This document shows, one piece after another, positions 25,140 to 58,881 of a DNA stretch of 64,000 nt (the stretch's first letter is position 1; every line of letters begins with the position of its first letter). The stretch comes from Cucumis sativus (Eukaryota; Streptophyta; Magnoliopsida; Cucurbitales; Cucurbitaceae). The notes beneath the pieces are model-generated. The model did no database searches. It had not been told where the DNA came from and saw only the letters and a program-made list of their open reading frames with translations. The stretch covers positions 10,974,001-11,038,000 of the forward strand of contig NC_026656.2 in NCBI RefSeq assembly GCF_000004075.3, written 5' to 3'. The position numbers and the translations under genes were made by a program.

Positions 25140-25282
25140 TTGTTCGTGCATAGCCAATAACAGGTAAAACTGCCATATGATCTGATCTTTAACCTCAATA
25201 TTTACAAAATTCAAAAGTAAAATAAGGAGAGATTAAGATTAGATCATGCTGGCAGCTTGAACTGATATAAGCACACGACAGA
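25140..25282 (-). ncRNA. MIR167: MIR167 precursor hairpin
   Basis: On the minus strand the 5' arm contains TCAAGCTGCCAGCATGATCT (25260 downward), which matches mature miR167 except at nucleotide 2. The 3' arm contains AGATCATATGGCAGTTTTAC (from 25183 downward), the expected miR167* partner. GATCT pairs with AGATC, and CTGCC with GGCAG, with a small internal bulge. The lower stem continues with GTG/CAC-type pairing toward CGTG and CACG at the base, and the loop is about 55 nt. This 5'-arm mature / 3'-arm star layout is that of known plant MIR167 genes. miR167 guides cleavage of ARF6/ARF8 transcripts and so tunes auxin responses in flowers, ovules and roots. A GT donor at 25035 (AAAAAAG|GTATGA on minus) downstream of the hairpin suggests a spliced primary transcript. 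Confidence 0.9.
25240..25260 (-). ncRNA. miR167: predicted mature miR167 variant (5' arm)
   Basis: 21 nt, starting U-C-A-A-G-C, where the common form starts U-G-A-A-G-C, and ending AUGAUCUA. The star strand would be 25183-25163. The exact Dicer cut is inferred by alignment to the usual miR167 position. Confidence 0.8.
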
Positions 25283-25381: not shown

Positions 25382-25428
25382 GGGATGAGGGAATATATAT
25401 ATGTATAGATAGATAGATAGATAGATAC
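25382..25428 (-). repeat. (AT)n/(GATA)n microsatellite in the presumed pri-miR167 leader
   Basis: ATATATAT followed by five to six GATA units lies upstream of the hairpin. It is likely length-variable between accessions. Confidence 0.8.
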
Positions 25429-35076: not shown

Positions 35077-37302
<2,226 letters not shown>

Positions 37303-42699: not shown

Positions 42700-43600
42700 T
42701 TAATGAGCCTTGAGTGCCACTCCAGCTTTCTCAGTGAAGGACATGAGGTACTCTTTCCTTGCTGGGTGCTGCTCCTGTGGTCGGTTAAAAGGGGTCCAAA
42801 CTGGCTCTCCCTTGAATAGTCTCATTAACTGTAAATAATCCAATGAATTGATAATTAATATCTTGAAATGAGAATCTTTGAAGTTAATGGTATTTAATCC
42901 TACCTTGGTATAATTATTGGTGTCCAGAGTAAAACGATGGTAGATACCAGCCGGCAAGATGATAAGATCGCCGGGCTTAATCCAGATTCGAATCCAACGG
43001 TCGTTCTTGTCCCGTACATCAAAGTAGCCACTTCCATCCAAACAGTAACGAATTTCCTCATCAGCATGAATGTGTTCTGTGTAGAAATCCTTCAATTTCC
43101 CTTCGTAATTGGCAAGTTTCTCTGGAGATATATCAAGTAAATCCTACCAAATCAAAACAAAATTAATCAAAAGAAGAAATTAACGAAAACATGTAAATGC
43201 AAAACGGCGATGGAATACTGAATATTCACAGACCACGTAGTTATATCCTCTATCGTCTCTGATTTTCTTCAATTCCTCATCGTTTTCATATATCTCAGGG
43301 TTCAATTTCCAATACAAAACGCCTAATTCTGCAGATAATTCATTCGATTCAATTCAATTCAATTATAGGGCTAAAAATCTGTTTCAGAAGTTATGGATAA
43401 GAGGATGGAAGTGCACCTGCCAATTGATTCATGGAGACGAATTCTTTAGGGTTTGGGTGATGAGGAAGCCTCTGGTCTTCATTGCAATCGTCCATAAACC
43501 AAGCCTGCAGAAACATAAGTTTCATCCATCAATCTTTCGACTAAATGTGGATATGTATAAGAAGCAGTTGGGTTGGGTGGAGTCTTACCTCGATCGCCAT
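42700..43600 (-). CDS. ARD: acireductone dioxygenase (ARD/ARD')
   Basis: Five exons on minus: 43600-43589, 43504-43417, 43328-43234, 43143-42904 and 42828-42700. They total 564 nt and 187 residues, the normal length. All junctions are GT-AG and in phase; the first exon encodes only MAIE. It is a cupin-fold metalloenzyme of the methionine salvage cycle. It oxidises acireductone to the 2-oxo acid precursor of methionine plus formate when iron is bound; with nickel it follows an off-pathway reaction that releases CO. The metal ligands are visible: His89 and His91 in [11 protein letters not shown], Glu95, and His134 in LPAGIYHRF. The start MAIEAWFMDD and the conserved DWRGYNYV-like block (here RDDRGYNYV) fit the family. 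In plants it recycles methylthioadenosine from ethylene and polyamine synthesis, probably in cytosol or nucleus. Confidence 0.95.
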
Positions 43601-58329: not shown

Positions 58330-58425
58330 GATTGAGATATGACAGCTCTCTGTTTTTTTTCTCGTTTTCTGTTTCGATTTTATGACCTTTCTCCACTTCA
58401 CTTCCTCCTCCATTTCTGGCCGCCG

Positions 58426-58541
58426 ATGGCCCTACTCCTCCTCCTCCACCACCGCCGCCGCACTCCTCTATCCCTCCTCCTCCTCCTCCTCCTCACTTCC
58501 TCCATTGCCGCCCGCCCCACTCCCATCGGTAAGTTTCAATT

Positions 58542-58573
<32 letters not shown>

Positions 58574-58881
58574 TTTATTCTCTCTCAAACCACCCATCTC
58601 TTAATTCCTCTATTTATCAACCCATTTCTCGGTTTGTTTTAACAAAAACAGACCAGGAAGCAGAACCAAAGCTTCTTCCACCAGGAACAAAGGAGCCATT
58701 TTTGACACGGCGGAGACTCAGCGGACCAGGGTCGTCCCCGCCCACTTGTAGATCCAAGTGCGGTAGTTGCCGCCCGTGTACGGCTGTGCACGTCCCTATT
58801 CAACCGGGCCTTAGTTTGCCCTTGGAATATTACCCTGAAGCTTGGCGTTGCAAATGCGGCAACACCCTCTATATGCCATGA
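58426..58881 (+). CDS. EPIDERMAL PATTERNING FACTOR-like secreted peptide
   Basis: Two exons, 58426-58528 and 58652-58881 (333 nt, 110 residues), joined at a split Gly/Asp codon; stop TGA at 58879-58881. Residues 1-29 form a signal peptide with a long leucine core ending near SSIAAR. A pro-region follows, then RRRLSGPGSSPP and a cysteine core with Cys at 67, 71, 74, 77, 101 and 103, finishing WRCKCGNTLYMP. The CxxxCxxCxxC...CxC pattern and the ending are those of EPF/EPFL peptides, ligands of ERECTA-family receptor kinases with TMM that pattern stomata and other organs. The short loop with PLEYYPEAW places it away from EPFL1, EPFL4/6 and EPFL9 as I remember them; the member is not resolved. 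I chose the second in-frame ATG because it gives a clean signal peptide; an upstream ATG at 58339 would add 29 residues. The intron begins with a TTTC microsatellite. Confidence 0.88.
58541..58574 (+). repeat. (TTTC)n microsatellite in the EPFL intron
   Basis: About eight TTTC units lie just after the splice donor and before the AG acceptor at 58650-58651. Confidence 0.9.

Follow-up and report, generated by a model that had tools for sequence, protein, structure and literature searches.

The locus considered here raises the question of whether a MIR167 gene whose predicted mature RNA carries C, rather than the canonical G, at nucleotide 2 encodes a miR167 that pairs differently with the family's ARF targets. 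It lies in a 64-kb window (the whole stretch of DNA analysed, C2:10974001-11038000) of the 226.6-Mb genome of Cucumis sativus, which comprises 88 contigs; below, C2 and G2 denote the base at nucleotide 2 of the RNA except where a genomic coordinate is given.

A MIR167 foldback with C at nucleotide 2

A preliminary description of the window had placed a MIR167 foldback on the minus strand and proposed that it be folded. The coordinates (25140..25282, minus strand), letters and fold of this predicted precursor were all confirmed: the 143-nt segment from 25282 to 25140 forms a hairpin of −48.5 kcal/mol (shuffles: mean −25.36, sd 3.36; z = −6.89), and 0 of 200 shuffles folded as well. The predicted mature 21-mer, TCAAGCTGCCAGCATGATCTA, occupies the 5′ arm (25240..25260, minus strand) with C at nucleotide 2 (position 25259), while the star predicted from fold and sequence, AGATCATATGGCAGTTTTACC, lies on the opposite, 3′ arm (25163..25183, minus strand). 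The predicted mature RNA shares 20 of its 21 letters with canonical miR167 and matches the 18-nt core AAGCTGCCAGCATGATCT exactly; the window has a single, mismatch-free occurrence of this core, which in control searches allowing up to three mismatches was matched in 1 of 100 shuffles (mean 0.01). By sequence and fold, the locus is a MIR167 gene.

The details at nucleotide 2 also proved to be as first described. The 5′ arm begins TCAAGC, the star base opposite nucleotide 2 is T (U in the RNA) and nucleotide 2 is unpaired in the MFE fold; nucleotide 1 is unpaired too, creating a 3×3 internal loop. Sixteen of the 21 mature nucleotides are thus paired in the predicted fold, and the five that are unpaired fall to three when nucleotide 2 is set to the G of the paralogues.

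The Rfam MIR167 model (RF00640) gives a sub-threshold match at the locus, with 48.8 bits on the plus strand and 30.1 bits on the minus strand. Its gathering score of 100, which is the library cut-off and not a defining feature of a MIR167 gene, was reached by nothing within the 64-kb window and by none of the seven cucumber copies (best 58.2 bits). At an E value of 0.01 or less the model matched four of these seven (the window copy, L002, together with L003, L004 and L007), and in the window copy, L003 and L004, the copies with both strands listed, the plus strand outscored the minus strand. The minus strand is taken as the gene here because the miR167 letters read 5′-to-3′ on it, in the 5′ arm.

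Just upstream of the precursor, at 25318-25300 on the minus strand, is an inverted repeat, AAAGGCAAACTTTGCCTTT, whose perfect 8-bp arms are separated by a 3-nt loop. An A/T run resembling a TATA box, TATACATATATATATT (25392..25407, minus strand), was picked out by eye upstream of a pyrimidine-rich leader and is a possible core promoter. Elsewhere the window contains a gene matching ATP sulfurylase in Pfam, with the site GAGTTCCTCCAAACGCTTCAT at 11298-11278 (minus strand), which against miR395 has a mismatch at position 1, G-U pairs at positions 7 and 14 and the remainder paired, and is predicted to be an ordinary miR395 target site. It also contains a gene for an epidermal patterning factor-like peptide (58339-58881, plus strand; Pfam EPF) and frames matching aldo/keto reductase (35463-35906, plus strand) and acireductone dioxygenase (42700-43095, minus strand).

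MIR167 copies in the cucumber genome

The comparison with the other MIR167 loci of the species that the preliminary description had called for was made within the cucumber genome itself, and it set the window copy apart. The core gave 12 matches genome-wide with up to two mismatches, seven of them exact, and a reversed-pattern control gave one. Six of the exact cores belong to copies beginning TGAAGC (G2) and one, the window copy, to a sequence beginning TCAAGC (C2). Opposite nucleotide 2, all six G2 paralogues carry C, with which the G is paired, as against U in the window copy; as its nucleotide 2 is C and the opposite base U, both arms of the window copy differ from the paralogues. For one of the six, L001 (C1:32155639), the opposite C is seen with 250 or 400 nt folded, not with 150; its loop is approximately 146 nt, its hairpin was seen only when at least 250 nt were folded, and it joins L005 in a small tree. 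In the small tree of arms the window copy is placed with the copy on C3 (support 0.655). Local duplication from L003, which lies on the same contig at a distance of 405 kb, was considered as the origin of the window copy and rejected, as blastn of the 3-kb loci confined the likeness to the precursor arms. The same comparison with L005 returned one 59-nt match outside the precursor (76%, E = 3e-4).

Two loci with two-mismatch cores were rejected as second C2 copies. The core at C2:12682530 (L012) is preceded by TC but folds without the miR167 arrangement, with 9, 10, 9 and 13 of 20 bases paired in four folds, the 13 with a segment some 250 nt upstream. That at C5:5461206 (L013) carries the letters of a cacao site for a GATA protein given in the portion of PMC4602222 that was available.

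Pairing with ARF target sites

When the genome was searched with the ARF pattern AGATCAGGCTGGCAGCTTGT, allowing up to three mismatches, 14 matches were returned: three exact sites, the seven MIR167 copies themselves and four others, with none for the reversed control. All three exact sites end GCAGCTTGT, and the exons that contain them all encode RSGWQLVFV. Taken as whole proteins, the three exons match Pfam AUX_IAA just above the cut-off and two of them match PB1 below it; the exon compared with the PDB (L009) matched ARF7 and ARF5 chains. Assignment of the three sites to ARF6/ARF8 rests on the known targets of the miR167 family, not on a tree; in melon, two ARF6 genes and one ARF8 gene, the same number as here, are predicted miR167 targets (PMC5524408, in excerpt).

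Nucleotide 2 faces G in each of the three exact sites, so that G2 is mismatched and C2 is paired, as the preliminary description had held for the ARF site. In all three, this G opens a valine codon (GTA), which means that improved pairing at this position can arise more readily by a change in the microRNA; nucleotides 1 and 14 face bases at second and first codon positions, respectively. C2 abolishes the sole mismatch within positions 2-13. In a simple scoring scheme of our own (mismatch 1, G-U 0.5, both doubled at positions 2-13), the three sites score 5, 4 and 5 with G2 and 3, 2 and 3 with C2, and the calculated duplex energies move from −31.0, −31.2 and −31.0 to −33.1, −33.3 and −33.1 kcal/mol, a gain of 2.1 kcal/mol at each. 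The suggestion that C2 improves target pairing at the 5′ end of the guide is thus borne out on paper.

The two rejected loci were scored in the same way. The site at C2:12682530, CAGGTTATGCTGGCAGCTTGA (L012, L026), shows near-full pairing with the C2 form (score 2, vs 4 for G2), and may be a target of that form or a chance match; read without introns, that strand offers no frame of more than 47 aa across the site. At C5:5461206, C2 would worsen the pairing, from 4.5 to 5.5.

Strand loading, processing and relation to known miR167s

The preliminary description had further held that C2 loosens the end of the mature-star duplex, and that this could favor loading of the 5′ strand. The loosening itself was reproduced: the energy at the guide 5′ end is −1.6 kcal/mol in the window copy; it would be −3.8 if G2 faced the unchanged star, and it is −6.0 to −8.7 in the duplexes of four of the six paralogues (L001 and L006 were left out). 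The consequence drawn from it was not supported: three of the four paralogue duplexes are more stable at the guide end than at the star end, and cucumber nevertheless contains large amounts of the G2 form. Among csa-miR167 5p sequences from shoot tips the G2 21-mer dominates, with 2,016,681 counts for six family members, and the dominant 3p sequence, GATCATATGGTAGCTTCACC, which is contained in copy L003, has 34 counts (PMC6238408, as far as its text was accessible). Strong guide ends and an abundant G2 21-mer together argue that end stability is not decisive for the miR167 family. They also speak against the proposal that the looser guide end is itself the selected effect, favoring AGO loading of the 5′-arm strand with target pairing as a side effect. 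A 5′ U may be enough for AGO1. Despite the low end energy of the window copy, we consider selection for loosening very unlikely.

The reading that we favor with good confidence for the window locus is that of a functional gene, as predicted here, which in cucumber probably corresponds to cme-MIR167e of melon. DCL1 would cut its precursor, AGO1 would load the strand with 5′ U, and the loaded RNA would slice ARF6/ARF8-type mRNAs as other miR167s do; from the predicted C2:G pairing, the window member would bind the same ARF targets somewhat more strongly. The C2 21-mer is not new as a sequence, as it is in print for both cucumber and Moringa. As cucumber miR167e it is given as UCAAGCUGCCAGCAUGAUCUA in Table 5 of PMC5958113, with ARF as its predicted target and qRT-PCR data; in the part of that paper available, the reference set is the melon data in miRBase, and the 21-mer printed there could therefore be a label taken from the reference and not a read proven in its own right. 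The qRT-PCR there shows ARF up at nearly all times and miR167e first down and then up, with no clear inverse relation. Moringa mol-miR167 is the exact C2 21-mer, with 27 reads (PMC4773123, Table 1, in excerpt). In the phloem transcriptome of Cucurbita maxima, a contig resembling cme-MIR167e (E = 4e-19) has nine aligned reads (PMC7093818). The C2 letters were absent from the accessible portions of PMC7327070, PMC9031375, PMC8885689 and PMC6263057.

Because the 3×3 loop lies at the expected first-cut site, a competing reading is that the 5′ end is shifted: DCL1 would cut one base away, the main product would be an offset form, such as one beginning UUCAAGC, and the real nucleotide 2 would not be this C. 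Consistent with this, the fold leaves nucleotides 1 and 2 unpaired along with the base beneath, and the form listed for Arabidopsis miR167c, UAAGCUGCCAGCAUGAUCUUG, is displaced by one base from the usual one (PMC4602222, in the part available). However, it is the unshifted form that is printed for cucumber miR167e and for Moringa mol-miR167, the latter with its 27 reads, and a shift seems to us improbable. A reading that we still regard as unlikely, but would take more seriously, is that expression of the C2 copy is weak, or the copy is drifting, and that nothing follows from the change, as the six G2 copies are able to provide most of the miR167. The dominance of the G2 21-mer in cucumber shoot tips favors it, and means that the C2 share may be small, and the precursor is weakened by its two additional unpaired bases. 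Against drift are the printed C2 21-mers of cucumber and Moringa, and the position of the melon member on published trees. The Aquilegia member, aqc-miR167, probably begins UCAAGC. In the sections of PMC4602222 that could be consulted, aqc-miR167 and cme-miR167e are the first-diverging pair among group II miR167s and their precursors form their own clade, so that the two group together on both mature and precursor trees, which suggests long retention if both carry C2; Table 2 of the same paper, however, assigns the G2 sequence to both, which is hard to reconcile with its own tree.

If the window locus is a functional MIR167 gene, as we favor, its C2 form matters for what it says of the family, the gene itself being ordinary. 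Canonical miR167 is inherently mismatched to its ARF targets at nucleotide 2, the C2 member is not, and the occurrence of one C2 member beside six G2 members in a single genome makes it possible to test cleanly how far this mismatch tempers auxin-response control. More speculatively, and with considerable doubt, C2 miR167 could be an old, retained sub-lineage (Aquilegia, Moringa and cucurbits) acting as a high-affinity ARF6/8 repressor alongside the G2 members; in these the mismatch at position 2 would be maintained, from the side of the target, by the valine codon of the ARF and perhaps retained as a damper.

Among known systems, the closest in letters is cucumber miR167e, which is the identical 21-mer with an ARF target; the available part of PMC5958113, with its melon reference data, gives no locus and no discussion of nucleotide 2. 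The window locus is probably the orthologue of cme-MIR167e, judged by shared name and letters and not by alignment. Moringa mol-miR167 is likewise identical in its 21-mer, but its listed star ends UUUCACC, which puts C opposite nucleotide 2 where the window copy has U; the same letters are listed for mol-miR167h, and this star may belong to another locus (PMC4773123, in the same excerpt). Canonical miR167a/b differs from the window copy in a single letter of 21, and this G2, mismatched to the ARF site, is paired in the precursors of all six cucumber paralogues, whereas the C2 of the window copy is unpaired in its predicted precursor fold and would pair with the target.
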